This document shows, in pieces, positions 9,702-25,659 of a DNA stretch of 64,000 bases (its first letter is position 1; the number at the start of each line of letters is the position of its first letter). The notes beneath the pieces were generated by a model. The model did no database searches and had not been told where the DNA came from. It saw nothing but the letters and a program-made list of their open reading frames with translations. The translations under genes and the position numbers were made by a program. Origin of the DNA: Mycolicibacterium arabiense (GTDB taxonomy: Bacteria > Actinomycetota > Actinomycetes > Mycobacteriales > Mycobacteriaceae); contig NZ_AP022593.1 of assembly GCF_010731815.2 (NCBI RefSeq), positions 5,084,001 through 5,148,000 of the forward strand, read 5' to 3'.

Positions 9702-9918
9702 GATGTGTCTCCTTGTCGGGGTGGACCGTCGTGCGGTCCCGATCTGTCTCTCGTCGATGCTGTCGCGGACCGGGCGACGGTGCATGGAGGTCGTGTGGAG
9801 ATTGGCTGGAGATCGCCGGGAGTGCGCCCACGGCGCACGTCGGCCGAAACGTGCGTGACGAATGCCGCCGCCCGACTAGCGTGTGACTGCCCGATCCCGG
9901 GCCAGATGGGAGATCAGC

Positions 9919-11397
9919 ATGCGAACCGGTTGGCCATTGCGGGGCCGCGAAGTGGACGAACGACGATCGACACGCGGTCTCGTGGTCGTCGTGACGGCAC
10001 TCCTGCTCGGCGCGCTCGGCGCCGCCACGCTCGCGGCGCCCGACGCGAAAGCCGAGGGCGAGAACTACGTCGTCGCCACCGACACGACCTTCGCACCGTT
10101 CGAATTCCAGGACGCGCAGGGCAAATTCGTCGGCATCGACATGGACCTGATCCGGGCGATCGCCGAGGATCAGAAGTTCAACGTCGACATCAAGCCGCTC
10201 GGCTTCGACGCGGCCCTGCAAGCGGTACAGGCCAATCAGGTGGACGGCGTCATCGCCGGGATGTCGATCACCGACGAGAGGCGGAAGGTCTTCGACTTCT
10301 CCGAACCGTACTTCGAGTCGGGCATTCAGATGGCCGTCCTCGAGTCCAACGAGGACGTCAAGTCCTACGACGATCTGCGCGGCAAGCGCGTCTCGGTCAA
10401 GAACGGGACCCAGGGCGCGGAGTTCGCCAACTCGATCAAGGACCAGTACGGGTTCGAGGTGGTCTCGTTCGCCGATTCCTCGACCATGTTCGACGAGGTG
10501 CGGACCGGAAACTCGGTGGCGGCCTTCGAGGACTATCCGGTGCTGCTCTACGCGATACAGCAGGGCAACGGGTTCAAGACCGTGACGCCCAAGGAGGACC
10601 CGACGGGCTACGGGTTCGCGGTGAACAAGGGCCAGAACGGCGAACTGCTGCAGAAGTTCAACACCGGCTTGAACAACCTCAAGGAGTCCGGTCGCTACGA
10701 CGAGATCCTGTCGACCTACCTCGGTGAGGGTGCCGCCGCGAGCGACGGCTCGTTCTTCGGGCTGATCAAGAGCACGACACCAATGCTGCTGGCCGGTCTG
10801 AAGATGACCGTCATCCTGACGGTCTCGTCGATCTTCTTCGCACTCATCCTGGGCATCGTCTTCGGGCTGGCCCGGGTGTCCCGCTCGATCTGGCTACGAG
10901 CCATCGGCACCACCTTCGTCGACATCTTCCGCGGCACACCGCTGATCGTGCAGGCGTTCTTCATCTACTTCGGCATCCCCACGGCGCTGGGCTTCCAGAT
11001 GTCGGCGGTGACCGCGGGCATCATCACGTTGTCGCTCAACGCCGGCGCCTACATGACCGAGATCGTCCGCGGCGGCATCCTCTCGGTGGACAAGGGGCAG
11101 ATGGAAGCCGCCCGCAGCCTGGGCATCGGATACCTGCCGACGATGCGCAAGGTGATCCTGCCGCAGGCCATCCGGACGATGATCCCGTCCTACATCAACC
11201 AGTTCGTCATCACGCTGAAGGACACCTCGATCCTGTCCGTGCTCGGCATCGCCGAACTCACCCAAAGTGGCCGCATCATCATCGCGGGCAACTACAAGGC
11301 CTTCGAGATGTGGCTGATCGTCGGCATCATCTACTTCATCGTCATCATGGCGTTGACCAAACTCTCCGACCAGGTAGAGAAGAGAATCGTGAAATGA
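9919..11397 (+). CDS. Amino-acid ABC importer, fused substrate-binding protein and permease
   Basis: A 492-residue fusion. Residues 1-46 hold a membrane anchor or signal segment; about 48-270 are a polar amino-acid binding domain ([34 protein letters not shown]); about 280-490 form a His/Glu/Gln-type permease with the EAA loop [20 protein letters not shown] contacting the ATPase. Such GlnH-GlnP fusions import glutamine or similar amino acids. The ATG at 9919 has GGGAGA upstream; an earlier ATG (9883) lacks one. The stop overlaps the ATPase start by four bases (ATGA), so the two form a coupled operon. Confidence 0.9.
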
Positions 11398-12167
11398 GCC
11401 AGCTGGTACCCGAGGCCGCGGCCACCGAGCCGAAGGACAAGGTCAAGATCCGCATCGAGGGGCTGAAGAAGTCCTTCGGCGAACTGGTCGTCCTCGACGG
11501 CATCGACACCACGGTCAAGCACGGCGAGGTCGTGTGCGTCATCGGGCCGTCGGGGTCGGGCAAGTCGACGTTCCTGCGGTGCCTGAACAAACTGGAGGAC
11601 ATCACCGGCGGCACGGTGATCGTCGACGACTTCGACCTGTCCGATCCCAAGGTCGACCTCGACGAGGTGCGCCAGCACATCGGCATGGTGTTCCAGCACT
11701 TCAACCTGTTCCCGCACATGACCGTCATCGAGAACGTCACGCTGGCACCGCTGCTGACGAAGAAGATGAACAAGGCCGCAGCGGAGAAGCGGGCGCTGGA
11801 ACTGCTCGAGCAGGTGGGCCTCGGCGAGAAGGCGCACGTCAAACCCGCCACGCTGTCGGGCGGGCAGAAGCAGCGCGTGGCCATCGCCCGCGCACTGGCC
11901 ATGAACCCGTCGATCATGCTGTTCGACGAGGCCACCAGCGCGCTGGACCCCGAGATGGTGGGTGACGTCCTCGAGGTGCTGCGCGAACTCGCGTCCGGCG
12001 GAATGACCATGGTAGTCGTCACCCACGAGATGGGTTTTGCGCGCGAGGTCGCCTCCCGGGTGCTCTTCATGGCCGACGGCAACATCGTCGAGGACGACAC
12101 GCCAGCCGAGGTGTTCGACAACCCGAAACACCCACGGCTGCAGGAGTTCCTCTCCAAGGTGCTGTAG
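11394..12167 (+). CDS. Amino-acid ABC transporter ATP-binding protein (GlnQ type)
   Basis: A 257-residue ATPase with all motifs: Walker [10 protein letters not shown] (51-59), Q-loop in [11 protein letters not shown], signature LSGGQKQR, Walker B IMLFDEAT, switch His in VTHEMG. The [10 protein letters not shown] and [13 protein letters not shown] blocks are typical of the polar amino-acid uptake family. It powers the fused binding/permease protein encoded immediately upstream, with which it overlaps by 4 bp. Confidence 0.93.
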
Positions 12168-12182
12168 ATGGGAGAGTTGGGA

Positions 12183-12923
12183 ATGGACCGCGAGGAAGAT
12201 CCGGAAGCGCGCATCAGAGCGCTCGAGCAGCCGCTCAGCGACATCGCCCGCACGTCGGAACTCGGTTCGGCGCACGACCATTCGGCCTACGGGTACATCC
12301 CGGCGCCGTCGGGACCGCACCCGCCACCGCCACCGGGGGCGTACCACCAGCCTCCGGCGCTGCCCTACCCGGAGACCGGGGACGCGGTCTTCCACGCGCC
12401 GGCGGCACCGCCCCGAGCGCACGGTGGGGCCGGCGTGGTCCCGGTCGTCATCGGCGTGCTCGCGCTGCTCATCGCCGGCGGCGTCACGCTGTTCCTGATG
12501 CTCAGGCCGTCGCCGCCCACGGTGGCCGGCGGTGGTGCCACCCTGACGGAGGGGCCCGTCGACGTCTCGACCGACCGTGACGGCGAGGCGCGAAACCCCA
12601 GCCGGACCAACATCTTCGTCCCACCGATCGTGCCGCGAACCGATCCGGCGCCGCCGCCGGGGACCAACGTCAGCATCGCAGGCATCGGCGAGGACAAGGC
12701 GTTCGCCTGCGACGACCACCTCGTCAGCATCAGCGGTGTGGAGAACACCGTCGTCATCACCGGGCGATGTGCGAGCGTGTCGGTCTCCGGCATCGACAAC
12801 GTGGTCACGATCGACGCCTCACCACAGATCTCCGTGTCGGGGTTCGACAATCGCGTCGTGTACCGCCAGGGCGAACCGGAGGTCACGACGTCGGGGACCG
12901 GCAACACCGTCGAGCGCGGCTGA
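12183..12923 (+). CDS. DUF3060 membrane-anchored protein
   Basis: A 246-residue protein. The N-terminus is acidic then Pro/Tyr-rich (about residues 45-75), a single membrane helix follows (VVPVVIGVLALLIAGGVTLFLM), and the exported part ends in a DUF3060 domain of short repeats (VSISGVENTVVITG, VSVSGIDNVVTID, ISVSGFDNRVVY) that probably form a small beta-solenoid. Function unknown; similar domains occur on mycobacterial lipoproteins. The ATG at 12183 is well spaced from GGGAGAG; an ATG directly after the upstream stop (12168) is an alternative. It may belong to the ABC importer operon. Confidence 0.75.
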   Translation: MDREEDPEARIRALEQPLSDIARTSELGSAHDHSAYGYIPAPSGPHPPPPPGAYHQPPALPYPETGDAVFHAPAAPPRAHGGAGVVPVVIGVLALLIAGGVTLFLMLRPSPPTVAGGGATLTEGPVDVSTDRDGEARNPSRTNIFVPPIVPRTDPAPPPGTNVSIAGIGEDKAFACDDHLVSISGVENTVVITGRCASVSVSGIDNVVTIDASPQISVSGFDNRVVYRQGEPEVTTSGTGNTVERG

Positions 12924-12933
12924 GCCCGGCCGC

Positions 12934-14289
12934 TCACCACGCCAGACTGGTGTGGGGATCGGCGGAGGTCAATCCCACCGACTCCGCGGCCAGGACCACG
13001 TTCTCGCCGATTCGATCGACGTCTGCCGAGTCGGTCAGCCGTACCGGGCCCGACGTCCAGCGCCGCGCCCGGTTCGCCGCCCACGACGCCCGAATCAGAA
13101 GTGCGGCACCGTCACCGGTGACGCGTACCGAGCCGACGCCGGGCCGGGCACAGGATTCGATCAGTCGTGCGACGGCCTCGCGCGACAGCACCGGCCTGCC
13201 GCTGGTCGAGATCGTGAACCGGCACCGGCGCCTTATCGATTCGGGTATCTGGCCGGCGTTGATCCGCGAATCCTGAACGCCCAGTTCGTGAAGCAGCGAT
13301 TCGGCCTGCTCCCCGACGAGCCAGATGCCGACGTCGAGAGCGAGCAGCGATCCGAGCGTGGCGACGAGGGACCCGGCTGCGTGCCCGGTGGTGTCCACCT
13401 CGACGGCGACGTCGGGCACGGCGTAGTGCAGTCCGGAGCGGCGGGCATCGGGGTCGGTGACCAGGCGTGCCACCGCCAGCGCCTCCTGGTTCTTCGCCGC
13501 AGCCCGGTCGGCGACGTCACGGGCGCCCCAGTCGGCGCCGTCGTGCCACGCCACCGCATCGCGGGCGTGATGCAACACGGCGCCGTTGACCACGGCGCGG
13601 TGGGCGAATTCCCAGTCTTCGCCGCCGTACCCGACGAACGACTCGTCGAACCCGCCCACGTCGACGAAGAGGTTTCGGCTGCAACACATCACGGAGCTGA
13701 TCACGTAGCGGTAGGAACGATGGTCGATGCGCAGCAGGTCGCAGCTGTCGCGGTATTCGTCGGACAGCCAGCGGGGCTCCTCGAGTACCGGGGGAGCGGT
13801 TTCGCCCGTCCACCACGACGGCAACCGCCGCGCCGTCCATCCCGCCAGGTCGGCATGCCTGCGGCGCCCGACCACCAGGGCGTCGGGGAGCATCGACGGC
13901 AGCCTGCTGATCCGGCGCAGGTAGGACGGCTCGGGCACGGTGTCGGCATCCAGGAAGCAGAGGACGTCCGCGTTCGTCTGTGCCGCACCGAGATTGCGCG
14001 CTGCCGCGGCCCTGAATCCGCGGTCCTCCTGCCGGATCACAGTGATCCGCAGCGGCGACTCCGGCACCCGCGGCGGCTCGGCCGAACCGTCGTCGGCCAC
14101 CACGACCTCGACGAGTTCGAGCGGGTAGTCCTGCAACTCTAGCGCGCCCAGCGTCAGCTCGAGTTCGCGCTGCTGCTGGAAGTGCGGGATCACGACGGCG
14201 ATTCGCACGGGGTGCGGGTCACGGTCGGCGAGCAGATCCCACCGGTTGGCCGGAACCGTCACCCGGCCGTCGTTCAGCGGCAACGTCAC
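12934..14289 (-). CDS. Family 2 glycosyltransferase, glycan locus
   Basis: A 451-residue GT-A enzyme. VVIPHFQQQ (33-41), DDGS (66-69) and the metal-binding DAD (114-116) are the nucleotide-sugar site; GYGGEDWEF near residue 220 is the acceptor-side motif shared with GalNAc/galactosyl-transferases. The last 150 residues form an additional domain I do not recognise. GTG at 14289 overlaps the stop of the upstream gene (GTGA). It is the last gene of the leftward arm, and only 10 bp separate its stop from the convergent DUF3060 gene. Sugar and acceptor unknown. Confidence 0.85.
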   Translation of the reverse strand: MTLPLNDGRVTVPANRWDLLADRDPHPVRIAVVIPHFQQQRELELTLGALELQDYPLELVEVVVADDGSAEPPRVPESPLRITVIRQEDRGFRAAAARNLGAAQTNADVLCFLDADTVPEPSYLRRISRLPSMLPDALVVGRRRHADLAGWTARRLPSWWTGETAPPVLEEPRWLSDEYRDSCDLLRIDHRSYRYVISSVMCCSRNLFVDVGGFDESFVGYGGEDWEFAHRAVVNGAVLHHARDAVAWHDGADWGARDVADRAAAKNQEALAVARLVTDPDARRSGLHYAVPDVAVEVDTTGHAAGSLVATLGSLLALDVGIWLVGEQAESLLHELGVQDSRINAGQIPESIRRRCRFTISTSGRPVLSREAVARLIESCARPGVGSVRVTGDGAALLIRASWAANRARRWTSGPVRLTDSADVDRIGENVVLAAESVGLTSADPHTSLAW

Positions 14290-15284
14290 GGGTGCCACGC
14301 AGCCAGCACCTCGGCGTAGCGCTGCGCCGCCCCGGCGACCGACGGCTCGCACACCGTCGAGGGCGACAGCCACGTCGAGTCGGGGCGGGCGAGTGCCGAG
14401 GCGATCGCCGAGGCCAGGCCCGCCGGATCATCCGGGTACAGCAGCAGCGCACCAGGGTTGCGTTCCGCGATCTCGCTGGTGTAGCGACCGACCGGGGCGA
14501 GCGGCCGGCGACCGGTGGCGATCCAGCTGTTGAGCGAACCGGACGCAGAGACGTGCCGATGGTGGGCCACCGGAACGGTGATCGCCTGCAGCGTCGCCCG
14601 CAGAGCGTGCCGGGGGACGTGACCGGTGACGGCGAACGGCCGCCGCACGAGCCGGGCGGACTCCGACAGTGATTCGACGAGATCGTCGTGCCCCGGCGAC
14701 GGCTCCCCGATGGCCATGAACCACACGTTTCGCGGCACGGCGGTCATCGCCGCGAGCACGTCGTCGTGGCCCTTGCCGGGATACAGGTAGCCGAAGACGC
14801 CGACGGACGGGGGTTGCGCGGGTGGTCGCGACGGGCGCGCGGCCGGAGTCGCCAGCGGCAGCGGGATGACGGCGACTTCGGGCGGCCGAGCGTCCACTTC
14901 GTCGAGCAGCATCGCCTCGTGGGCGCTGCTCACGACCACGGCGTCGACGGCTGCACAGATCTTGCGGTACGCCTCCGCGCGTCCGGCGAAGTGGGTGCCG
15001 TCCGAAGGCTGGGGCAGGTCGTGCAGGGTGGCGGTGACGCGGTGGCCCGCAGCGCGAACTCGCGCGGCGAGTTCGACGATCGACGTCGCGGCCTCGGCGG
15101 CGGTCCGGCCGAACAGGCGATCGGTGAACTGGACGTGCACGCCGGAATCCAGATCGGTTGGCACACAACGGGCCAACCGGGTGTCGACGTCCGTCGCGCG
15201 CAACGCCTCGTCGAGTTCGATGCCGAAGCGGACGACGCCGTGCCGGGCGGGGCCGACGGCCAGGTGCATCACGGCCGCCGTCAC
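14286..15284 (-). CDS. GT4-like glycosyltransferase, glycan locus
   Basis: A 332-residue GT-B type protein. N-terminal half has the acceptor domain (HLAVGPARHGVVRFG, VTATLHDLPQPS); C-terminal half has the donor domain (VGVFGYLYPGKGHDDVL, ASGSLNSWIATGRRPLAP). The usual Glu-x7-Glu motif is not obvious, so it is a divergent member or has a changed mechanism. GTG start overlaps the WcbI-like gene stop by 4 bp (GTGA), and its own stop overlaps the next GT the same way, so translation of the three leftward genes is coupled. Confidence 0.75.
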   Translation of the reverse strand: MTAAVMHLAVGPARHGVVRFGIELDEALRATDVDTRLARCVPTDLDSGVHVQFTDRLFGRTAAEAATSIVELAARVRAAGHRVTATLHDLPQPSDGTHFAGRAEAYRKICAAVDAVVVSSAHEAMLLDEVDARPPEVAVIPLPLATPAARPSRPPAQPPSVGVFGYLYPGKGHDDVLAAMTAVPRNVWFMAIGEPSPGHDDLVESLSESARLVRRPFAVTGHVPRHALRATLQAITVPVAHHRHVSASGSLNSWIATGRRPLAPVGRYTSEIAERNPGALLLYPDDPAGLASAIASALARPDSTWLSPSTVCEPSVAGAAQRYAEVLAAWHP

Positions 15285-16231
15285 CTGGCCGACCTACCCG
15301 TCGGCAGACCGAGGATGTCCATCATCTCGCCGTGGCGTTCGACGGCCAGATCGAGGAAGTCGGGGTTGTCCGCATACCACCGCATCTGAATCTCGTGCAC
15401 GTCCTGGATGGACAACCGTCGCGACTCCAGCGTCCAGTCGGTCCTGGCCGGTGCGCTCACGCGCAGCGCGTCGAGCACACGGCTCTCCAGCGGCGCGTAC
15501 ACCGATCCGAGCAGAGTGCGATCGACGGCGCCCACCGGCAGCCGGACGCCTGCGGCGTCGAGCACCCGTCGGGCCAACTCGATCAACACCGGGTTGCCGG
15601 GGTGGTTGATGACGTGGCAGGCGTCGGCACCGCACGAGGCGAATACGTCGGACACGGCCACGTCGGTGTCGCGGCGTTCCCGCGCCGCGAGCGTCGCCCG
15701 GCTCGCCTCGGCGGCGGCGACGAACCGGTCGGCGGGGACGTCGACGTCCCACGGGTTCTCCGGTGCCCGGCCCGACCGCGCCGCGACGACGGTGCGCAGA
15801 TCGTGGTAGGGCACCCCGGGCGGCGTGATCGACCGGTCGGACGGACGGCGCACGATCGCCTGAAACGGGTAGAGCCCCGCGTATCGGATGACGGGCCAGC
15901 GCACCACGCGGGCGCCCGCGGGCAACCGCCCGGCCATCTCGTCGGTACCCAGGGGCAGGTCGCGGTAGTTCGCTCTGATCGGCTGGCTGACCAGCACCTG
16001 GGCTTCGCCGAGCAGGGCGTCGAGATGGGGCAGGTCCGCAGCGGTCAGCTCGTGCACAGGGGGCACCAGCACAGTGCGATACGGCCGGTCCGCCACGGTA
16101 TCGAGCACCTGACGCAGCGCCTCGGCTTGACAGTTCCCGATCACCAGCCACAGGGGCAGCGATGAGGGCCGCTCGGCGTCGGGATGTCGGTAGAACTGGC
16201 GGTAGTGCCAGGTCCTTCCATCGTGCTGCAT
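15281..16231 (-). CDS. WcbI-like polysaccharide biosynthesis acyltransferase
   Basis: A 316-residue protein with the WcbI signature WLVIGNCQAEALRQVL (Cys34 in GNCQ), followed by a block resembling other members (QVLVSQPIRANYRDLPLG, VVRWPVIRYAGLYPFQ). WcbI of Burkholderia capsule binds CoA and is a putative acetyltransferase; acylation of a surface sugar is the best guess here. It is the first gene of the leftward arm. A perfect TAAACT -10 box lies 6 bases before the ATG, which suggests a leaderless mRNA and fixes this start. Confidence 0.75.
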   Translation of the reverse strand: MQHDGRTWHYRQFYRHPDAERPSSLPLWLVIGNCQAEALRQVLDTVADRPYRTVLVPPVHELTAADLPHLDALLGEAQVLVSQPIRANYRDLPLGTDEMAGRLPAGARVVRWPVIRYAGLYPFQAIVRRPSDRSITPPGVPYHDLRTVVAARSGRAPENPWDVDVPADRFVAAAEASRATLAARERRDTDVAVSDVFASCGADACHVINHPGNPVLIELARRVLDAAGVRLPVGAVDRTLLGSVYAPLESRVLDALRVSAPARTDWTLESRRLSIQDVHEIQMRWYADNPDFLDLAVERHGEMMDILGLPTGRSAR

Positions 16232-16330
16232 TTCACGAGTTTAGATTCGCGATTGGCGTGCTATACCTGCGGTGCGAGCAACCGTCTAGTAGATGGCGAT
16301 GTCCTGCCGCCACTTTTCGATTGGTACTTC
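16232..16330. promoter_or_regulatory. Divergent promoter region of the glycan locus
   Basis: The core AGTTTAGATT (16238-16247) holds TAAACT on the minus strand (16243-16238) and TAGATT on the plus strand (16242-16247). The leftward box sits 6 bases from the ATG at 16231, typical of mycobacterial leaderless promoters. The stretch is poorer in GC than its surroundings. Confidence 0.5.
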
Positions 16331-17389
16331 GTGATAACGCTTGCCTCGGTCCCCGCTGGGCATCCCTACGTGGATGCCGTCGTCGACCCTGAAAGCGTTG
16401 TGCTGCTGCCAGATCCGACGCCGCCCGGCGCCACGGCGCCGGGCCAGTGGTGGCCACCGCGGTGGCTCGACCCCGAGTTCGTGAGCGCCCACGTGCCCGA
16501 CATCGACGTCATGCACGTGCACTTCGGCTTCGACTCGGCAGACCCGGTCGACCTGGAGGACGTCGCGAAGCAGCTCGCGCGTCGCGGCGTTCCACTGGTG
16601 GTGACCGTGCACGACCTACACAACCCGCACTTCGAGGACGCCGGACTGCACGCCGCGCGGCTCGGCGTGCTGCTCGGCGCGGCCGATGCCGTGATCACTC
16701 TGACCGACGGCGCCGCAGCCGAAATCGAGAGCCGCTGGGGCCGCCGTTCGGTCGTGCTCCCGCATCCGCACCTACTTCCGCTCGACGAGGTCGGCGGCGC
16801 GCGCGTGCAACGCTCCGTGCCGGTCGTGGCCGTGCACGCAAAGGGGTTGCGCGCCAACATCGATCCGTGGCCGCTGCTCGACGCACTCGTCGAGGCTGGT
16901 CGGGACGGCTACCGGCTGCGGCTCGATCTCGACGTCGGCGCGTTGGCGTCGCCGCGCGCAGCCGAGGTCACCGACCGGCGGCTCGAGGCCTACCGTGCCG
17001 CGGGAGTGGACGTCCGCGTGCACCCGTGCTTCGACGACCGCCAACTGTCGGACTACCTCGCCGACGTCGACGTCCTGGTGCTGCCCTACCGCTTCGGCAC
17101 CCACTCCGGCTGGGTCGAGGCAGCTCACGACGCCGGTGTGCACACGGTGGTGCCCGACTGCGGGTACTTCCACGAGCAGCATTCCAGCGCCCTATTCCAC
17201 TACGGCAGAACCGAATTCGATGCGACGAGCCTGACCGACGCGGTCGAGGCGGCCGTGAGCCGGGCACGCGGAGGTCAGGCATCGGCGGACGAGGCGCGGC
17301 GGCGCAGGAGGGCCGACGAGCGGCACCGGGTGCGAACCGCCCACACACGGCTCTACCGTCAGGTCCTGGCCGACCGGAACGCCGCGTGA
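16331..17389 (+). CDS. Glycosyltransferase, first gene of rightward glycan operon
   Basis: A 352-residue GT-B type protein. The family opens with a block like ASVPAGHPYVDAV, then QWWPPRWLDPEFV and VMHVHFGFDS, and a C-terminal donor domain (VLVLPYRFGTHSGWVEAAHDAGVHTVVPD). The open frame runs back to an ATG at 16184, but that would overlap the divergent gene by 48 bp, and its codons (TTA, CTA, GTA, AGT) are unlike the rest, so GTG 16331 is preferred; the start remains uncertain. The stop overlaps the next gene (GTGA). Confidence 0.7.
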   Translation: MITLASVPAGHPYVDAVVDPESVVLLPDPTPPGATAPGQWWPPRWLDPEFVSAHVPDIDVMHVHFGFDSADPVDLEDVAKQLARRGVPLVVTVHDLHNPHFEDAGLHAARLGVLLGAADAVITLTDGAAAEIESRWGRRSVVLPHPHLLPLDEVGGARVQRSVPVVAVHAKGLRANIDPWPLLDALVEAGRDGYRLRLDLDVGALASPRAAEVTDRRLEAYRAAGVDVRVHPCFDDRQLSDYLADVDVLVLPYRFGTHSGWVEAAHDAGVHTVVPDCGYFHEQHSSALFHYGRTEFDATSLTDAVEAAVSRARGGQASADEARRRRRADERHRVRTAHTRLYRQVLADRNAA

Positions 17390-18477
17390 GGCGGCCACTC
17401 CGCATCGCGCTCCTGGCATCGTCCCGATACGCGGTGCGCCAACCGTTCGCCGGCGGCATGGAGTCGTTCGTCTACGAGTTCGCCCGCGCACTCACCGCAG
17501 AGGGCCACCACGTCACGCTCTTCGCCGCACCCGGGTCGGGGACCGACCTGCCGTGCGAGGTGCTGCCCGTGCACACCTTCGAGATGAGCGAGGAGTCACG
17601 GCGCGAGCCATTGACTCCCGAGTGGATCGTGCACGAGACCCACGCCTACCTGTCGGTGATGCTCGACCTCGGCGACAGGCTGCGCGACGCCTTCGACATC
17701 GTGCACAACCACAGCCTGCACTACCTGCCGCTGGCCATGGCCAGGTCGTTGAGCACACCCATGCTGACCACCCTGCACACGCCGCCGTTGCCGTGGCTCG
17801 AGCAGGCCGTGGCCCTGCCGCAGGGGGTCGCCAGCGACTTCGTCGCCGTCAGCGCCTTCACCGCACGACAGTGGGATCCCATCAACGGGCCGGTGTCGGT
17901 CATCCCCAACGGCATCGACCTCGACGCCTGGGAACCCGGACCGGGCGGCGACTACGCGGTGTGGTCGGGACGGCTGGTACCCGAGAAGGGCACGATCCTG
18001 GCGATCGAGGCGGCCCGACGAGCAGGGCTCCCGCTGCGCATCGCCGGGCCGGTGGGCGACCGCAAGTACTTCGACCAGTACATCGCGCCCGAACTCGACG
18101 ACACCGTCTCCTACTGCGGCCACCTCCGTCAGGACGAACTCAACGATTTGGTGGGCGGGGCAGCCGTCGCGCTCGTCACCCCGACCTGGGAGGAGCCGTT
18201 CGGTCTAGTGACGGCCGAGGCGATGGCGTCGGGCACCCCGGTGGCGGCGTTCGCGCGGGGAGGCATTCCCGAGATCCTCGACGCCGGCAGCGGTCGCCTT
18301 GCCGCACCGGACGACGTCGATGCGCTGGCGGGCGCGGCGCTCGAGGCCGCCGAACTGCCACGCGCCGCCGTGCGGGCCAAGGCGGAGGCGGACTGCAACC
18401 ACGCGGTGATGGTGCAGCGCTACCTGCAGCACTACGACGACATGCTGTACCGCGAGCGGCGCCAGGTCCCGGCGTGA
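17386..18477 (+). CDS. GT4 family glycosyltransferase
   Basis: A 363-residue retaining GT-B enzyme. N-terminal domain: RIALLASSRYAVRQPFAGGME and HNHSLHYLPLAMA. Donor domain: VIPNGID (172-178), phosphate-binding Arg196 and Lys201 in SGRLVPEKG, and the Glu-x7-Glu motif EEPFGLVTAE (269-278). Members often use UDP-glucose, UDP-GlcNAc or GDP-mannose. GTG start at 17386 overlaps the preceding stop, and the stop overlaps the next GTG, keeping it within the coupled operon. Confidence 0.88.
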   Translation: MRRPLRIALLASSRYAVRQPFAGGMESFVYEFARALTAEGHHVTLFAAPGSGTDLPCEVLPVHTFEMSEESRREPLTPEWIVHETHAYLSVMLDLGDRLRDAFDIVHNHSLHYLPLAMARSLSTPMLTTLHTPPLPWLEQAVALPQGVASDFVAVSAFTARQWDPINGPVSVIPNGIDLDAWEPGPGGDYAVWSGRLVPEKGTILAIEAARRAGLPLRIAGPVGDRKYFDQYIAPELDDTVSYCGHLRQDELNDLVGGAAVALVTPTWEEPFGLVTAEAMASGTPVAAFARGGIPEILDAGSGRLAAPDDVDALAGAALEAAELPRAAVRAKAEADCNHAVMVQRYLQHYDDMLYRERRQVPA

Positions 18478-19457
18478 TCGCCTACTACGTGCATCACCAC
18501 GGACGGGGACACCTCAACCGGGCGCTGGCGATCACCCGCCACCTGACCGACGGCGTCGTCTTCCTGTCGTCTCTCGCGCCGCCGTCCGGCCTACGCCCCG
18601 GCGACCGCTGGGTCCAGCTGCCCATGGACGTCGGATCGGCGGGCGACCCGCCGCTGGATCCCACCGCCAACGGCCGGCTGCACTGGGTTCCCGAGCACGT
18701 CGACGGGCTGGCGCGCCGTGCTGCTCTGATCACCCAGACACTGGCGGCCGAGCAGCCCCGGCGGATCGTCGTGGACGTCTCGGTCGAGGTGACCCTGCTG
18801 GCGCGGCTGGCCGGGATACCGGTCACGGTGATGGCCATGCCGGGAGAACGTGACGACGCCGCGCACCGGCTGGCCTACGACGTCGCCGACTCGATCGTCG
18901 CCCCATGGTCGGACGACGTGTACCGGCCGTCCTGGTCAGCGCGCTACGCCTCGCGCGTCCACTACGTCGGCTCGATCAGCCGGTTCGACGGACGGGAGCG
19001 GCCCGCAGCGGCGCCCGGCGCAGGACCGTGCGGGCTGCTGCTGGCGGGCGCAGGCGGCTCGGCCGTGCCCGCCGACGGCGTGACCGACCTGCAGGCGGCC
19101 GCACCGGAGCTGACCTGGCGGGCGATCGGTGGCACGGCAGGCTGGGTCGACGACCCGTGGCCGATGATCGCCGGCGCGGACCTCGTCGTCTGCCACGCCG
19201 GCCAGAACGCGGTCGCCGACGTGGCGCTCGCCGAGGTACCCGCGATCGTCGTCCCCGAGGAACGGCCGTTCGACGAGCAGTGCAGCACCGCGGCTGCCCT
19301 GGACCACGCGGGCGTCGCCGTCTCCGCACCCGGCTGGCCGACCCGTGACCAGTGGCCCGAACTGGTGGCGCGGGCCCGATCCATCGATCGCCGCGGATGG
19401 CGCCGACTGCGCGCCGTCGGCGCCCCGGCGCGCGCGGCTCGGGTCATCTCCGCGTGA
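18474..19457 (+). CDS. MurG-like (GT28-type) glycosyltransferase
   Basis: A 327-residue GT-B protein. It opens with HHHGRGHLNRA (residues 7-17), the glycine-rich loop of MurG/MGT-like transferases, and the C-terminal half has the donor site: LLLAGAGGSAVP, ADLVVCHAGQNAVADVALAEVPAIVVP and a following ERPFDEQ block. Inverting transfer from a UDP-sugar is expected. It is bounded by GTGA overlaps on both sides. The acceptor is unknown. Confidence 0.8.
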   Translation: MIAYYVHHHGRGHLNRALAITRHLTDGVVFLSSLAPPSGLRPGDRWVQLPMDVGSAGDPPLDPTANGRLHWVPEHVDGLARRAALITQTLAAEQPRRIVVDVSVEVTLLARLAGIPVTVMAMPGERDDAAHRLAYDVADSIVAPWSDDVYRPSWSARYASRVHYVGSISRFDGRERPAAAPGAGPCGLLLAGAGGSAVPADGVTDLQAAAPELTWRAIGGTAGWVDDPWPMIAGADLVVCHAGQNAVADVALAEVPAIVVPEERPFDEQCSTAAALDHAGVAVSAPGWPTRDQWPELVARARSIDRRGWRRLRAVGAPARAARVISA

Positions 19458-20314
19458 GCGCGCCCCGCGTCGCGGTCGTCACCGTGGTCCACGGGCGCCA
19501 CGACCACTTGCGTCGGCAGCAGGACGGGTTGCGGGCGAGCCTCCGCACGCCCGACGTCCGGTGCGTCGTCGCGATCGACGACGACCCGACGGACCTCCTC
19601 GACGAAGACGTCGAGGTCATCCCGTGCGATCGGACCTCGCGGGGCCTGCCGCTCGCGCGGGCCCGCAATCTGGGTGCCGAGCGGGCCATCGCGCTCGGCG
19701 CGGACCTGGTGATGTTCCTCGACGTCGACTGTATACCGGGGGCGACCATGATCGACCGGTACTTCGCGGCGCACGCCTGCGTCCGGCGTCCGGCCCTGCT
19801 GGCCGGCCCCGTCACGTACCTTCCGCCGTCGGAGCACGGCTACCCCCTGGCAGGCCTGCCCGACGCGACGAACCCTCACCCGGCCCGGCCCAACCCGCCC
19901 GCCGGCGCGGTGCTCGAGGAGACCAACTACGACCTGTTCTGGTCGCTTTCCTTCGCCACGACGCCTGCGGTGTGGCGTCGCATCGGCGGGTTCTGCGAGG
20001 AGTACGTGGGGTACGGCGCCGAGGACACCGACTTCGCCACCCAAGCCGCACGCCGTGACGTCGCGCTGTACTGGGTGGGGGGTGCGCACGCCTATCACCA
20101 GCACCATCCGGTGTCGAACCCTCCCGTCGAACACCTCGGCGACATCGTGGCCAACGCCGCGACCTTCCACCGCCGCTGGCGCCGCTGGCCCATGCCTGGT
20201 TGGCTCGACGAGTTCGAACGCCGCGGTCTCATCACCCGCGCCGACGACCAGATCTCCCTGACCACCCCTGCCGACGCCGCCTCGGCCCTCGCGAAAGGCC
20301 CACATCCGACGTGA
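19454..20314 (+). CDS. Family 2 glycosyltransferase
   Basis: A 286-residue GT-A enzyme with VAVVTVVHGRHDHL, the acidic pair in AIDDD (41-44), GLPLARARNLGAERA and the metal-binding DVD (90-92), then GYGAEDTDFATQAARR near residue 180. It resembles the GT2 at 12934-14289 in its GYGxED motif, so the two could act on the same type of acceptor. Start and stop both share 4 bases with neighbours. Confidence 0.85.
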   Translation: MSAPRVAVVTVVHGRHDHLRRQQDGLRASLRTPDVRCVVAIDDDPTDLLDEDVEVIPCDRTSRGLPLARARNLGAERAIALGADLVMFLDVDCIPGATMIDRYFAAHACVRRPALLAGPVTYLPPSEHGYPLAGLPDATNPHPARPNPPAGAVLEETNYDLFWSLSFATTPAVWRRIGGFCEEYVGYGAEDTDFATQAARRDVALYWVGGAHAYHQHHPVSNPPVEHLGDIVANAATFHRRWRRWPMPGWLDEFERRGLITRADDQISLTTPADAASALAKGPHPT

Positions 20315-20928
20315 ACTCCCCAGCGCCCCACAAATTCGCCGCCGACGTCGACCACTGGTCGGACATCCCGGGGTGGTTCCAGTGGCGGGAGGGCCAGGAG
20401 GATGCCGCTGCGACGTTCCCGGAGGGGAGCACGTTCGTCGAGGTGGGCTGCTATCTGGGCAGGAGTCTGTGTTCGCTGGCCGAGGTGGTGCGCGACTCGG
20501 GACGCGACTTCACGGTGATCGGCATCGACACGTGCCGGGGCAGCGGCGCCGAGGGTCAGTCGAACACCGACGCCCACGGTGCCGCCGTCGAGTACGGCGG
20601 CGGAACGTTCGCCGGGCTGCTGCACCGCAATCTCATTGCGTGCGGTGCCGCCGACGACGTCCACCTGCTGGTCAGCACCTCCCCGGCCGCGGCTAACCTG
20701 TTCGCCGACGGGTCGCTGACCTGGGTGCACCTCGATGCGCGGCACGACTACGACAGCGTGGTCGCCGACATCGACGCGTGGGCACCCAAGGTGGCCCCCG
20801 GCGGTTGGCTGTCTGGCGACGACTACGACTCCCTGTGGTGGCCAGGGGTCGTCGCGGCCGTGGGGGACAGGTTGCCCGACGCGCACGGCTGGCTCACTGC
20901 ACAGTGGCGTTGGTGCAAACCGTCATGA
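20311..20928 (+). CDS. SAM-dependent methyltransferase-like protein
   Basis: A 205-residue protein of the class I methyltransferase type seen in Methyltransf_24. VEVGCYLG (43-50) is the SAM-binding loop, VIGIDTC supplies the acidic second strand, and WVHLDARHDYDSVVADIDAWAPKVAPGGWLSGDDY is the region that in relatives binds a metal and the acceptor. In this locus it could O-methylate the sugar product. GTG at 20311 overlaps the GT2 stop; its own stop overlaps the regulator's ATG. Confidence 0.78.
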   Translation: MNSPAPHKFAADVDHWSDIPGWFQWREGQEDAAATFPEGSTFVEVGCYLGRSLCSLAEVVRDSGRDFTVIGIDTCRGSGAEGQSNTDAHGAAVEYGGGTFAGLLHRNLIACGAADDVHLLVSTSPAAANLFADGSLTWVHLDARHDYDSVVADIDAWAPKVAPGGWLSGDDYDSLWWPGVVAAVGDRLPDAHGWLTAQWRWCKPS

Positions 20929-21779
20929 CCGACCAGCGGGTGTCCGTCGCAGAGTCCTGTTTGAATGGCGGGGTGTACACCTTTCCAGCGCCCACCCCGC
21001 GACCCGGTGAGGAGCTGCCCCCAGGAGTGACCGCCCCACTCGATCGTCAACTGGCGGACGGCTCGGTCGAAGGGGTGGCTCGCGGGCTCGCCGGCCTCGA
21101 CGAGGTGGCCTGGAACAGCCTCGACCAGTTGAGCCGCGCGCTGCGCGTGGAAGAGGGCAACCTGGAGGCGACGCTGGCGGCCATCCTGGTCGCGGCCGTC
21201 GACCTGATCGATGGCGCCAACGCCGCGGGCCTCAATCTGCTCGTCAAGAAGAAGTTCGTGCCGCAGGTGGTATTCGGCGCGGCGCCCCCGGTGCTCGACG
21301 AGTTGCAGCAGCGCACCGAGCGCGGACCCTGCATCGACGCCTCGCGCGAACAGCGCACCGTCGACCTAGCCGACACCCGAACCGACTCGCGTTGGCAAGA
21401 ATTCACTGACACGGCAGTCGAACTGGGCGTCCTGTCCATGCTGTGCGTGCCCCTGTGGGTCGACGAACGCAAGCTCGGGTCGCTGAGCCTCTACTCGTCG
21501 GAGCCCCACGCCTTCGACCAGACTGCGGCCCGGCTCGCGAACCTGTACGCCACCCACGCCGCGCTCGCCCTCGCCGATGCCCAACGCGTCGACCAGCTGC
21601 ACCGCGTGGTGACCAATCGCGACCTCATCGGTCAGGCCAAGGGCATTCTCATGGCCACCCAGCGCATCACCGCCGACGACGCCTTCGCGTTGCTCACCAA
21701 CGCCTCGCAACGGCTCAACAGGAAGCTGGTCGACATCGCCGAGGTGGTCGCCACCACCGGCGCGCTGCCCACCCGGTAG
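20925..21779 (+). CDS. GAF-ANTAR regulator
   Basis: A 284-residue regulator with a GAF domain (about residues 65-205; LEATLAAILVAAVDLI… SMLCVPLWVDERKLGSLSLYS) and a C-terminal ANTAR domain (about 215-275; NRDLIGQAKGILMATQRITADDAFALL). ANTAR domains bind paired RNA hairpins and prevent transcription termination. The ATG at 20925 overlaps the methyltransferase stop (ATGA), placing it in the glycan operon, but a GTG at 20943 or 20972 would give a separate unit; this start is uncertain. Confidence 0.85.
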   Translation: MTDQRVSVAESCLNGGVYTFPAPTPRPGEELPPGVTAPLDRQLADGSVEGVARGLAGLDEVAWNSLDQLSRALRVEEGNLEATLAAILVAAVDLIDGANAAGLNLLVKKKFVPQVVFGAAPPVLDELQQRTERGPCIDASREQRTVDLADTRTDSRWQEFTDTAVELGVLSMLCVPLWVDERKLGSLSLYSSEPHAFDQTAARLANLYATHAALALADAQRVDQLHRVVTNRDLIGQAKGILMATQRITADDAFALLTNASQRLNRKLVDIAEVVATTGALPTR

Positions 21780-22245
21780 TCGAGCCGGGGGCAATGAACG
21801 CGGCGTGAACCGGCGATGTCGAGCTAATTCGGACGCGTGCGGTACCGAAGCTCACGCACACCGTCAGTCACTCGCGTAAGCCGCGCAGCACGCGGCATTC
21901 GATTAGCTGTCGTGTCGCGCTGTGATTTACTTCTCAATTTCTCCGGCGAATACTAAGAAACGTTTTCGCGAGGCCGCGTTCGAGGCTCGCCGAAGGCGTT
22001 GCCAGAACGTGAAATATGCTGCTGCAGGCTGTGAAACGAGTTGCCGACGCAACATAACATTCGGATAACGAAGAGTTTCCTAAGCATGTACTGAGAGCTT
22101 CGGCGAGCGGGTACGCGACCCTTGGTCGACGACGAATGGAGCGTCACTCCTCGTCGCTACACTCGATGTCGACCGCGTCTTTCCAATGACGCTGACCAAT
22201 CGAAATCTAGGCCGGCGCATGCCATGCCGGCGGAGGTGCCAAACA
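21780..22245. other. 466-bp non-coding region before the beta-propeller gene
   Basis: No gene is supported. The centre (about 21900-22090) is markedly more AT-rich than the surroundings and is likely promoter DNA. In M. tuberculosis the corresponding gene Rv1057 is stress-regulated; no confident box for its known regulators could be placed here. A short dyad, GTTGC-CGAC-GCAAC, lies near 22040. Confidence 0.4.
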
Positions 22246-23277
22246 GTGGCTAACGGCTTCGTGCGCTCGAACAGCGCGACCGTCGACAGTGCGACCCCGA
22301 CTGCGACAGCGACCCGGCAGGGCACCGCGTCCATCGGACACGGTCCGATCGCAGACATTGCCGTCGACGGCCGGACCGTCGCCGTCACGAACTACGGCGA
22401 TCACTCGCTCGCGGTACTCGACGCCAACGACCTCACCGTCAAGGGCGGAATCAGCGCCCGCGAACCGTTCGCACTCGCCGTCGCAGGCGACAAGGCCTAC
22501 GTCGGCGTGGCGTCGGTGGCCTACGACGCCGTCGCCGTGATCGACACCCGCACCGGCGCGGTCAGCGCCTCCTACCCGCTGTCCTACAGCGTCACCGCGA
22601 TGACCACGAGCCCCGACGGCAAGCGCATCTTCGCTGGTCGCGCCGCCGACGGTGGCGTGGACGTCGCGGTGATCGACGTCGTCGCGCAGCGCGTGGGCAC
22701 CATCTACCTGGCCAAGGGCGACGACGTCGTGATCGACGCCATGCAGGTCGACCCCTCCGGACGCCGCCTGTACGTCGCCACGTCGGATTCCCGCGGTAGC
22801 CGCCTGGTGATCGTCGACCTGGAGAACGCCAGGGCCCGACGGACGCTCGAGATTGGCGCACCCATCCGCGGGCTGGCGATCGGGCTGGACAACACCGCTT
22901 ACGTCCTCACCTCCGACATCGAGGACCGCGGCGTCGTGCACGTCGTCGACCTCGTCGCGGGCCGCATCATGGTGAGCGCCGAGATCGCCACGGCGCCAAC
23001 ACAACTCGCGCTGTCGGTCGACGGCACGCGCGCCTACGTCGTCGACTACGACCGCGTGGTCGTGCTGAGCACCGCCAACCTCGACGTCATCGACACCATC
23101 ACGGTGGACGCCAGGCCGTCGTGCCTCGCGGTGAGCACCGACCGCGTGTACGTCGCGGACTACGCCGGCGGCGTGACCGCGTTCGCCGTCCCCGCACCGT
23201 CCCCGATGCTGTACGCGCCGTCCATGGTCGCCAACCCGGCCGCGCGGCCGCAGGTTCGCGAGCTGGCTCCCGCCTGA
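22246..23277 (+). CDS. YVTN-type beta-propeller protein, Rv1057-like
   Basis: A 343-residue protein made of about seven YVTN-like blades, visible as repeats such as AVLDANDLTV, AVIDTRTGAV, VDPSGRRLYVATSD, YVVDYDRVVVLSTANLDV and VYVADYAGGVTAF. It corresponds in fold and position (just before fadD14) to M. tuberculosis Rv1057, whose role is unknown but which responds to envelope stress. No classical signal peptide follows the chosen start. GTG at 22246 is preferred because GGAGG lies 9 bases upstream; in-frame ATGs at 22186 and 22219 lack a site. Confidence 0.8.
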   Translation: MANGFVRSNSATVDSATPTATATRQGTASIGHGPIADIAVDGRTVAVTNYGDHSLAVLDANDLTVKGGISAREPFALAVAGDKAYVGVASVAYDAVAVIDTRTGAVSASYPLSYSVTAMTTSPDGKRIFAGRAADGGVDVAVIDVVAQRVGTIYLAKGDDVVIDAMQVDPSGRRLYVATSDSRGSRLVIVDLENARARRTLEIGAPIRGLAIGLDNTAYVLTSDIEDRGVVHVVDLVAGRIMVSAEIATAPTQLALSVDGTRAYVVDYDRVVVLSTANLDVIDTITVDARPSCLAVSTDRVYVADYAGGVTAFAVPAPSPMLYAPSMVANPAARPQVRELAPA

Positions 23278-23296
23278 AACGGCAGGGGCGCGTGAG

Positions 23297-24010
23297 TCAG
23301 CGCCACTGGTAGCGGGTCTTCGGCCTGCCCTTGCCGTAGTCGGTGTGCCGGATCACGGTGCCCTCGTCGGCCAGTCGCTCCAGGTAGCGCCACGCGGTCA
23401 CCCGCGACACACCCACGCGCCCGGCCACCTCGTCCGCGGTGAGGCCGTGGGCGTGATCGCGCACCGTGCGCGCGATCTCGTCGTTGGTCTGCGGCGCGGC
23501 ACCCTTGGGTGTGGCGGACTTCTCATTGCCGGTGCGCAATTCGGCGAGAGCGCGGTCGACCTCTGCCTGGCTTGCGGCATCCACTCCGGCCGGCAGTGCC
23601 ACGCGGTAGCGACGGTAGCGCTCCAGACGGTCGCGGAACGCGGCGAACGTGAACGGTTTCAGCAGGTACGCCAGCGCGCCGTGCGCCACGGCCGCGCGCA
23701 CCATCTCGAGGTCGCGCTCGGACGTGATCGCGATGATGTCGGGCGCCGGGCGCAACCCCGCGAGGGCGGAGGCAAGGCTGATACCGCTCGCGTCGGGCAG
23801 TCCGAGGTCGAGCAGTACCAGGTCGATGGGGGTGTCGCCGGCCGACGCCTCCGCCGCCGCCTGCATCGCGTCACGCGCGGTGTGTACCACCGCGGTCGCC
23901 GAAAAGCCCTCCACCCGTTCTAGATACGTTCTGTGCGCCTCCGCGATCAGGTGGTCGTCCTCGACGATCAGAACCGAAATCACCCGGACTCCTTCGGTGC
24001 GCGACGTCAT
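23297..24010 (-). CDS. CitB/DcuR-type response regulator
   Basis: A 237-residue regulator. Receiver domain about residues 10-130 with the acidic pair VEDD and phosphoacceptor Asp68 in VLLDLGLPD, plus the conserved Lys in YLLKPF. The C-terminal DNA-binding part (ARTVRDHAHGLTADEVAGRVGVSRVTAWRYLERL) is a helix-turn-helix of the CitB/DcuR class. The ATG overlaps the sensor kinase stop by 4 bp (ATGA), so the pair is one transcript. Its target is probably the symporter gene at 25765; see the direct repeats there. Confidence 0.88.
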   Translation of the reverse strand: MTSRTEGVRVISVLIVEDDHLIAEAHRTYLERVEGFSATAVVHTARDAMQAAAEASAGDTPIDLVLLDLGLPDASGISLASALAGLRPAPDIIAITSERDLEMVRAAVAHGALAYLLKPFTFAAFRDRLERYRRYRVALPAGVDAASQAEVDRALAELRTGNEKSATPKGAAPQTNDEIARTVRDHAHGLTADEVAGRVGVSRVTAWRYLERLADEGTVIRHTDYGKGRPKTRYQWR

Positions 24011-25659
24011 GACGTGACCACTGGCACCGTCACGGTCACCACTGAACCGTAGGTGACGTCCGCGGTCAGGGTGCCGCCGTGACGTTTCACCACCTGCGCC
24101 ACCAGCGCCAGACCCAGGCCGTGGTGGTTGACGTCGGACTTCGTGGAGTAGCCGCGCTGCATTGCCCGCTCGAAGGCGTCGGCGTCCATGCCCGCGCCGC
24201 TGTCGGCGACCCGGATCACCAGTTCGTCGTCGTCCGAAGTGACGGTGACCTCCACCCACGGATCGTCGCGATCACATGCGTCCATGGCGTTGTCGACGAG
24301 ATTGCCGAGTACGGTGACGATCTCCTGCGCCGAGAGCGGCAGGTGCGCCGTGGCGGCCGACGTCGTCGGCAAGTGGGTGTCCTCGGTGACGGTCAGCGCG
24401 ATGCCGCGCTCGTCGGCCTGGGCGGTCTTGCCCAGCAGCAGGGCCACCAGCGCAGGCTCACCCACGTCGGCGGAGAGTCGGTCGACCAGGCGTTGCGAGA
24501 GGGCGAGTTCCTCGGTCGCAAACGTGACGGCATCCTCGGGTCTGCCCATCTCCACCATCGTGATCACGGCGTGCAATTTGTTGGCGGCCTCGTGGGCTTG
24601 GGCCCGCAGGGAGTCGGTGAGCACCTGCAGTGAACTCAATTCGCCCAGGGCGCCCTGCAATTCGGTTCGGTCGCGGATCGTGACCACCTCCGACCGCTTC
24701 GAGGTGGGACGGTCGTCGGACCGGTCGGCGTCGGAGCCGCGCACCGTGGACCGGTTCACGACCAGGACGCGGTCGTCGGTCACGTGCACCTCGTCGCGGA
24801 CGCCCGGATCGTGGTCGTGGAGGAATGCGGGCAGGTCCGATGGCGAGATGGTGCCGGGCGGTAGCCCCAGCAGTCGCCGCGCCTCGTCGTTCACGATCGC
24901 GACCCTGTCGCCGTCGAGGACCACCAGGCCCTCGGACACCGAGTGAAGGATCGCGTCGTGGTGCTCGTACATCACCCTCAGCTCGTCGGGTGCGAGGCCG
25001 TGGGTCTGCCGCAGCAGGCGGCGGCGAATGGCCCACACGCCCAGAAGCGAGACCGCAAGCGCGCCAAGGCCGACGACGACGATCGCGGGAATCTGCTCAC
25101 GCCAGCGCTGCGCCAACGTCTGCTGCGTGATGCCCGCCGACACGAGACCCACCACGTCGCCGTCCGGGTCGAGCACCGGTACCACCGCGCGGATCGACGG
25201 TCCCAGCGTGCCGGTGTACACCTCGGTGAATGTCTCGCCCCGCAGCGCGGGGGCGATCGTGCCGAGGTACTTGCCGCCGATCTGGCGCGGATCGGTGTGG
25301 GTGAAGCGGATGGCATCGGGCGACATGATCGTGATGAACGCGATGTCGGTGTTCGTCCGCACCGCCTCGGTGACCGGTTGCAGTATCTCGGTGGCGCGTC
25401 CCGACTGGATCGCCGACGCAGTGGACGGCGCATCGGCCAGGGCGGTCGCGATGCTCACCACCTGCTGTCGCGCTGCCTCGTCGCCATCCTGGCGGGCGTC
25501 CACGAGCGCGAGCGCGCTGCCGATCATCACGATCACCGCGATCACGATCACCTGCAGGGCGATCGCCTGACCGGCCAGCGACCGGGGCCACGAGCGGCTC
25601 ACCAGCCCGCGCCACGACCTGCCCACCAACACCTCCGCCTCATCACGATCAAACGTCAC
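24007..25659 (-). CDS. CitA/DcuS-type sensor histidine kinase
   Basis: A 550-residue kinase. Membrane helix about 31-53, an extracytoplasmic PAS/Cache sensor to about 187 containing RFTHTDPRQIGGKY (118-131), the ligand motif shared with citrate and C4-dicarboxylate sensors, a second helix about 190-210, a cytoplasmic PAS (about 225-330), then the H box (RAQAHEAANKLH, His356) and ATPase domain (VDNAMDACD; DSGAGMD; GLGLALV). It should sense an external carboxylate and phosphorylate the regulator encoded downstream. It diverges from the symporter gene. Confidence 0.9.
   Translation of the reverse strand: MTFDRDEAEVLVGRSWRGLVSRSWPRSLAGQAIALQVIVIAVIVMIGSALALVDARQDGDEAARQQVVSIATALADAPSTASAIQSGRATEILQPVTEAVRTNTDIAFITIMSPDAIRFTHTDPRQIGGKYLGTIAPALRGETFTEVYTGTLGPSIRAVVPVLDPDGDVVGLVSAGITQQTLAQRWREQIPAIVVVGLGALAVSLLGVWAIRRRLLRQTHGLAPDELRVMYEHHDAILHSVSEGLVVLDGDRVAIVNDEARRLLGLPPGTISPSDLPAFLHDHDPGVRDEVHVTDDRVLVVNRSTVRGSDADRSDDRPTSKRSEVVTIRDRTELQGALGELSSLQVLTDSLRAQAHEAANKLHAVITMVEMGRPEDAVTFATEELALSQRLVDRLSADVGEPALVALLLGKTAQADERGIALTVTEDTHLPTTSAATAHLPLSAQEIVTVLGNLVDNAMDACDRDDPWVEVTVTSDDDELVIRVADSGAGMDADAFERAMQRGYSTKSDVNHHGLGLALVAQVVKRHGGTLTADVTYGSVVTVTVPVVTS

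Follow-up and report, generated by a model that had tools for sequence, protein, structure and literature searches.

The first steps of mycothiol and bacillithiol synthesis are each performed by a glycosyltransferase paired with a PIG-L-type deacetylase (MshA/MshB and BshA/BshB, respectively). The cyanobacterial glucosylsucrose synthase and the tetrahydrobiopterin glucosyltransferases transfer sugars onto soluble acceptors (PMC9909042; Protein Data Bank (PDB) entry 5ze7), and MftF oligo-glycosylates mycofactocin, as stated in the available part of PMC7491314. The methylglucose lipopolysaccharides (MGLP) and methylmannose polysaccharides (MMP) of mycobacteria are polymethylated polysaccharides that are intracellular and also acylated (PMC4555173, available part). 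WcbI, from capsule synthesis in Burkholderia pseudomallei, is required for the capsule in Burkholderia, and the available part of PMC4104973 reports no detectable activity of the purified protein. Here we describe a block of nine genes (A to I, from left to right) that contains relatives of several of these enzymes. It lies at positions 12934–21779 of the window, i.e., the whole 64,000-nucleotide stretch of Mycolicibacterium arabiense DNA that was analysed (contig NZ_AP022593.1, positions 5,084,001 to 5,148,000), in a host genome of 6.45 Mb in 2 contigs. Our tentative reading, to which we give a probability just short of even, is that the block specifies a pathway of two modules that works in the cytosol and makes a small, soluble oligosaccharide, and that the core module is stress-linked.

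Genes A-B-C run leftward and D-E-F-G-H-I rightward, diverging from a 99 bp gap (16232..16330, no strand assigned), the presumed promoter region of both operons, which shows conserved blocks in an alignment of 15 Mycobacterium rows. GTGA overlaps join C/B, B/A, D/E, E/F, F/G, and G/H, and an ATGA junction joins H to I. An earlier note on this DNA had described this arrangement correctly, including three leftward and five rightward enzyme open reading frames (ORFs), a GAF-ANTAR ORF, and the lack of a transporter, polymerase, or priming transferase, to which the lack of a flippase gene can be added; its title counted five glycosyltransferases, but there are six (A, B, D, E, F, and G), as its own gene list implied. 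A 19.5 kb segment including the block has 93% DNA identity to Mycolicibacterium lacusdiani (locus L037; L and G numbers label loci and genomes, respectively). Differences from L037 fall mostly at third codon positions in every gene (e.g., 7/5/49 at positions 1/2/3 in F and 3/3/23 in H), indicating that the frames are under purifying selection. The mechanical ATG start of D at 16184 was rejected and GTG 16331 adopted, because homologues begin there, a GTG is present in the sequence, and the 99 bp upstream contain only three differences from L037, one per codon position. No enzyme has a hydrophobic segment that reaches the 2.6–2.8 of the neighbouring membrane proteins, and the lower values (1.92 for A and 1.6–1.7 for B, F, and I) do not in themselves prove that the enzymes are soluble.

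In terms of protein families, gene C (15281..16231, − strand) encodes a putative acyltransferase of the WcbI family (Pfam WcbI, 1.2e-67; 228 bits against PF18588, with a cut-off of 29.2), and matches 4bqn by profile at 3.3e-10. The acetyl-CoA contacts Cys14 and His201 of WcbI align with Cys34 and His210 of C, which are invariant in 15 rows, and the comparison with WcbI is confined to these two acetyl contacts. Unlike the capsule system, the block has no capsule export, polymerase, or priming genes and presents a soluble setting. PF18588 was found in none of 14 control genomes, the single plasmid match of C was in Sulfitobacter (28% identity), and none of the open PMC papers on WcbI concerned actinobacteria, judging by title or the start of the abstract. 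Gene H (20311..20928, + strand) encodes an S-adenosylmethionine-dependent methyltransferase (Methyltransf_24, 3.2e-19) with a remote profile match (4.6e-06) to the solved methyltransferase 6g7d, which we take to be an MMP methyltransferase. The earlier note had proposed an acylated and methylated product, which agrees with the contact residues of C and the likeness of H, although acyl transfer by C is a prediction from sequence. The resemblance to MGLP and MMP ends with these modifications: in place of a homopolymer machine, the block holds transferases of four kinds, six in all, and no glucosyl-3-phosphoglycerate synthase was found in it by the NCBIfam search.

Gene E (17386..18477, + strand; Glyco_transf_4, 1e-21) is a GT4 glycosyltransferase with the E-x7-E motif typical of GT4 / GT-B retaining transferases, in which Glu270 and Glu278 are invariant in 18 rows. 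It is closest in sequence to enzymes with a pterin or sucrose as acceptor, namely the tetrahydrobiopterin glucosyltransferase 5ze7 (2.5e-41) and tll1591 (9.5e-39), and shares GRLxPEKG with the glucosylsucrose synthase and tetrahydrobiopterin glucosyltransferases, its nearest solved relatives. In contrast to glucosylsucrose synthase, it has Ala at the site of the catalytic Tyr18 and is accompanied by five more transferases. MshA and BshA belong to the same GT4 fold class as E and D, but E scores only 45.5 bits against MshA (TIGR03449, cut-off 462.5; the BshA cut-off is 274). Gene D (16331..17389, + strand) is a GT4-like glycosyltransferase that scores slightly below the Pfam GT4-like cut-off (28.1 against 28.5); its structure model has a GT-B fold of the GT4 class, with PimA and PglA among the fold neighbours, and carries GTHSGWxE instead of a full E-x7-E, only the second Glu being invariant (16 rows). 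Gene B (14286..15284, − strand) is likewise GT4-like (Glyco_trans_1_4, 9.9e-07; 29.5 bits, cut-off 27) and has HRHxSASGS where E-x7-E usually stands. Gene A (12934..14289, − strand; start GTG 14289, the mechanical ORF reaching 14373; GTGA overlap with B) is a GT2 glycosyltransferase (Glycos_transf_2, 1.8e-15) that matches the GT2 domain of chondroitin synthase by profile (4.4e-37) and is related to MftF, at 81 bits against a TIGR03965 cut-off of 280. Gene G (19454..20314, + strand; Glyco_tranf_2_2, 1.2e-06) is GT2-like, with a weaker profile match to chondroitin synthase (1.2e-11), and gene F (18474..19457, + strand) is GT28-like, with a GT28 C-terminal domain (Glyco_tran_28_C, 6.5e-08). Gene I (20925..21779, + strand) encodes the GAF-ANTAR regulator (ANTAR, 1.5e-17; GAF_2, 2e-15). 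None of the nine proteins reached a curated NCBIfam cut-off, none of the eight enzymes matched the PADLOC anti-phage defence models (E 0.001), and assignment to a known pathway failed, as the NCBIfam, PADLOC, and PDB sequence searches yielded no named one. Searches of open PMC papers turned up no description of this cluster and no paper joining WcbI, mycobacteria, and a glycosyltransferase; within that scope, the pathway appears undescribed, as the earlier note suggested.

The neighbourhood is conserved among relatives, which had been proposed as a test, and occurs in several actinobacterial families. A profile scan of genome contigs with D yielded 582 relatives, and the best 80 loci, all found through D, were kept; a gene was counted as a neighbour of D if it lay within 7 kb and had ≥40% identity over ≥40% of the gene. 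A to G were present together at 36 of the 80 loci and DEFG without ABC at 22; the remainder contained ABCD without EFG (13), ABCD with FG but not E (4), or other partial sets (5). H was linked to D at 12 loci. The hosts included Mycobacterium/Mycolicibacterium, Rhodococcus, Rhodococcoides, Williamsia, Nocardia, Terrabacter, Pedococcus, Nocardioides, and other genera, and the flanks beyond A–H varied by lineage.

Because all these loci were found through D, a test independent of both D and linkage was needed, and we therefore considered co-occurrence in 148 Mycobacterium genomes, including that of the window (thresholds of 1e-55 for E and 1e-20 for H). A and C were present in the same 14 genomes, D in 30, F and G in 31 each, E in 33, and H in 24. 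All 14 genomes with A and C also held D, E, F, G, and H, and all 30 with D also held E, F, and G, whereas H was found in only 2 of 16 genomes with D but without A and in 8 of 118 without D. This association did not depend on proximity. EFG was distant from ABC in 7 of the 14 genomes (G030, G035, G055, G124, G130, G177, and G182; e.g., at 1.19 and 2.84 Mb in G124), and H was distant from ABC in 8 (G014, G028, G030, G035, G052, G107, G135, and G177), lying on other contigs or, in G014, 226 kb away; no A–G gene was found in 20 stretches around H. G055 has its ABC-H locus at 0.28 Mb, without a D match, and its sole D sits with EFG at 3.52 Mb. In a wider set of 346 genomes of the phylum, F was found in 14, which included all 4 that carried C. 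On a tree of 96 D rows (pieces of <280 residues were left out), the presence of ABC required only two changes, indicating that the ABC and non-ABC kinds of D are old lineages. These distributions are most simply read as a single pathway in which DEFG forms the core and ABC/H an add-on that depends on it. The single modified-oligosaccharide pathway of the earlier note is supported in that its enzymes are conserved and co-occur, but not as a single compact unit, since ABC and H are often unlinked from the core.

The core without ABC appears to be under stress-type control. The SigF consensus of M. smegmatis is GTTT-N14-19-GGGTA (PMC4694148, available part), and we searched for GTTT or GGTT, a spacer of 14–18, and GGGTA. 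Of 34 loci without ABC, 22 carried the pattern upstream of D, with one common spacing at 20 of these 22 sites. After near-identical upstream regions were dropped (60 to 41 for ABC loci, leaving out the window's own copy, L117, and 34 to 31 for loci without ABC), it was present in 20 of 31 non-redundant loci without ABC, for which shuffles predicted 0.14. The controls gave 22 of 401 for the remaining genes of these loci, with A–H excluded, and 3 of 282 for 20 arbitrary stretches taken from 11 of the genomes concerned. GAF-ANTAR genes, searched for with gene I of the window, a query independent of the tested loci, were located near 17 of 28 EFG loci without ABC (9 of the 16 from mycobacteria and 8 of the 12 from other hosts), compared with none of the 20 control loci and 2 of the 34 that have ABC. 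Sigma-factor genes, searched for with a query taken from one of the tested loci (L152), were located near 3 of the 16 mycobacterial and 8 of the 12 other loci, near 1 of the 34 with ABC, and near none of the 20 controls. Catalase, Mn-catalase, and hemerythrin genes stood near some loci. Such genes also belong to the M. smegmatis SigF regulon, as does the strongly SigF-dependent GT2 gene MSMEG_1097 (PMC4694148, Table 1, available part). Judged from promoter pattern and neighbouring genes, the core without ABC is part of a SigF/SigB-type stress regulon, which extends the earlier reading of the locus.

Under the two-module reading, D, E, F, and G would add sugars stepwise from nucleotide sugars onto a soluble acceptor, the first bond being made by E or D. 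A-B-C and H would then lengthen and decorate the product: A and B would add sugars, C would attach an acyl group from CoA, and H would O-methylate. Given the place of the ABC-less core in a general stress programme of the SigF/SigB type, the most likely product is either a protectant against stress that resembles a compatible solute or a glycosylated metabolite made under stress. A bolder version is possible but doubtful, namely that DEFG is a widespread, unnamed actinobacterial stress pathway whose products, small soluble oligosaccharides, form a new family and are perhaps built on amino sugars, with ABC/H as a separable acylation/methylation module and a protectant or a glycosylated redox metabolite as the product. 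If true, a stress-made metabolite of Mycobacterium, Rhodococcus, Nocardia, Williamsia, Terrabacter, and other genera has been overlooked, which would rank with trehalose, mycothiol, and mycofactocin, and there would be a soluble pathway in which to seek the substrate of WcbI, the activity of which is so far only proposed. The nested pattern is directly testable, with a four-gene core, four decoration genes, and naturally occurring genomes that carry the core either by itself or together with the decoration genes.

Several observations weigh against this reading. The hypergeometric values for co-occurrence (4e-8 to 1e-32) ignore kinship, and because some of the 80 loci end at contig edges and all were sampled through D, their linkage counts are too low. 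D is missing from G056, which has E, F, G, and H. The C of G323, one of the four in the phylum set, is 42% identical and sits in an exopolysaccharide cluster, and is probably a paralogue. The strict SigF pattern was present in only 3 of 41 ABC loci, and neither strand of the window gap at 16232–16330 contained a match with a spacer of 14–18; the best-scored site there on the D strand was AGTTTA-N15-TGCTAT (p ~0.2). With a looser score, some ABC loci showed candidate sites, many of them at p 0.02–0.08, and others showed none. The first promoter control (40 of 489) still contained A–H genes, and the clean count of 22 of 401 exceeds the rate in arbitrary loci, as these places seem rich in such promoters. 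Counts of any stress gene (16/16 and 11/12 for mycobacterial and other EFG loci without ABC, 2/20 for control loci, and 8/17 and 2/17 for ABC loci) are partly circular, because the queries were mostly proteins of the tested loci themselves, and several of the Terrabacter and Terracoccus loci surveyed are close kin. For the window's own copy, which differs from the SigF regulon in lacking the promoter pattern, stress control is a guess prompted by gene I; I accompanies A–H in 2 of the 80 loci only and is lineage-specific here. Overall, the interpretation in the earlier note is partly supported.

Mycobacteria and Rhodococcus make many methylated and acylated glycolipids, and the enzymes might instead act on a lipid acceptor, assembling or trimming a glycolipid or some other glycan of the envelope for export by a transporter encoded elsewhere. 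This explanation, which we consider unlikely though it is the strongest competitor, would fit the likeness of D's fold to PimA and PglA, the need for WcbI in the Burkholderia capsule (PMC4104973, available part), and the surroundings of the distant C homologue of G323, where the exopolysaccharide cluster (L180) includes a priming glycosylphosphotransferase. However, no transport, polymerase, priming, or acyl-chain synthase gene stood out among the recurring neighbours of the loci (crude ORF calls), the nearest solved relatives of E act on soluble acceptors, and D without ABC shows stress-type control.

A more improbable alternative is that the sugars form the tail of a small cofactor or natural product, such as a pterin, thiol, or peptide cofactor. 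The closeness of E to the tetrahydrobiopterin glucosyltransferases and the kinship of A with MftF, though far under the cut-off, point in this direction, as does a PIG-L deacetylase gene near five loci with EFG (L095, L140, L154, L181, and L182), which recalls the MshA/MshB and BshA/BshB pairs. Nevertheless, no aglycone-making gene recurs with DEFG (crude ORF calls), and PIG-L genes are confined to a minority of loci, with none of this module in the window block. Least probable of all is that two unrelated glycan functions share D by history, with ABC-H acting apart from DEFG: the unlinked sets and the two old clades of D would accord with it, but every one of the 148 genomes that carries A and C also carries D, E, F, and G, and in G055, D is absent from the ABC-H locus and present in a D-E-F-G set at another place.

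The PIG-L genes may belong to a third module (L095, 3151–6096; L140, 6646–8738; L154, 13399–14796; L181, 3492–5900; L182, 10204 and 14033–16374; L199, 8289–12439; and L200). A GT2 relative stands beside PIG-L in L095, L140, L181, and L182, and an acyl-CoA-dehydrogenase-like gene accompanies it in L095, L181, and L182; the GT2 relative occurs alone in L138 (G056), where the E-F-G set follows it and a catalase-like gene. In L199 and L200, the module genes stand with a paralogue of E. The PIG-L protein also carries a NodS-like methyltransferase domain in L154, L182, and L199, and this combination hints at an amino sugar in some products.

D also matched seven Rhodococcus plasmids (41–44% identity). 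For example, NZ_CP096567.1 (L178), a plasmid of 517 kb from Rhodococcus qingshengii that is typed as mobilizable, carries D-E-F-G at 140769–144823, annotated as glycosyltransferases and one hypothetical protein; GAF and ANTAR genes, here split, follow ~5 kb downstream. The core can therefore travel on plasmids, which says nothing of the window copy. The loci of Kitasatospora arboriphila NRRL B-24581 (L072) and Williamsia muralis (L073) have the same gene order and 87–96% DNA identity, and the L072 contig may represent contamination or a mislabelled strain. In one distant relative (L192), a sulfotransferase gene lies between G and D, and a gene for N-acetylglutaminylglutamine amidotransferase, presumably an osmoprotectant enzyme, is located ~3 kb past F (12001–13824; 928 bits, cut-off 570).

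On the left flank of the block, positions 9883–12167 encode a glutamine-type ABC transporter, composed of a binding-protein/permease fusion and its ATPase, and 12168–12923, adjoining A, a DUF3060 protein with a likely membrane segment; the latter also adjoins A in L037 and L040. GlnH, GlnQ, and the 251-amino-acid gene occupy the same place only in L037 and L040 among the 80 loci. On the right, 22186–25659 encode a beta-propeller-like protein, a response regulator, and an sCache-domain sensor kinase, and these genes, like those of the left-flank transporter, have kept their position in L037 and L040.

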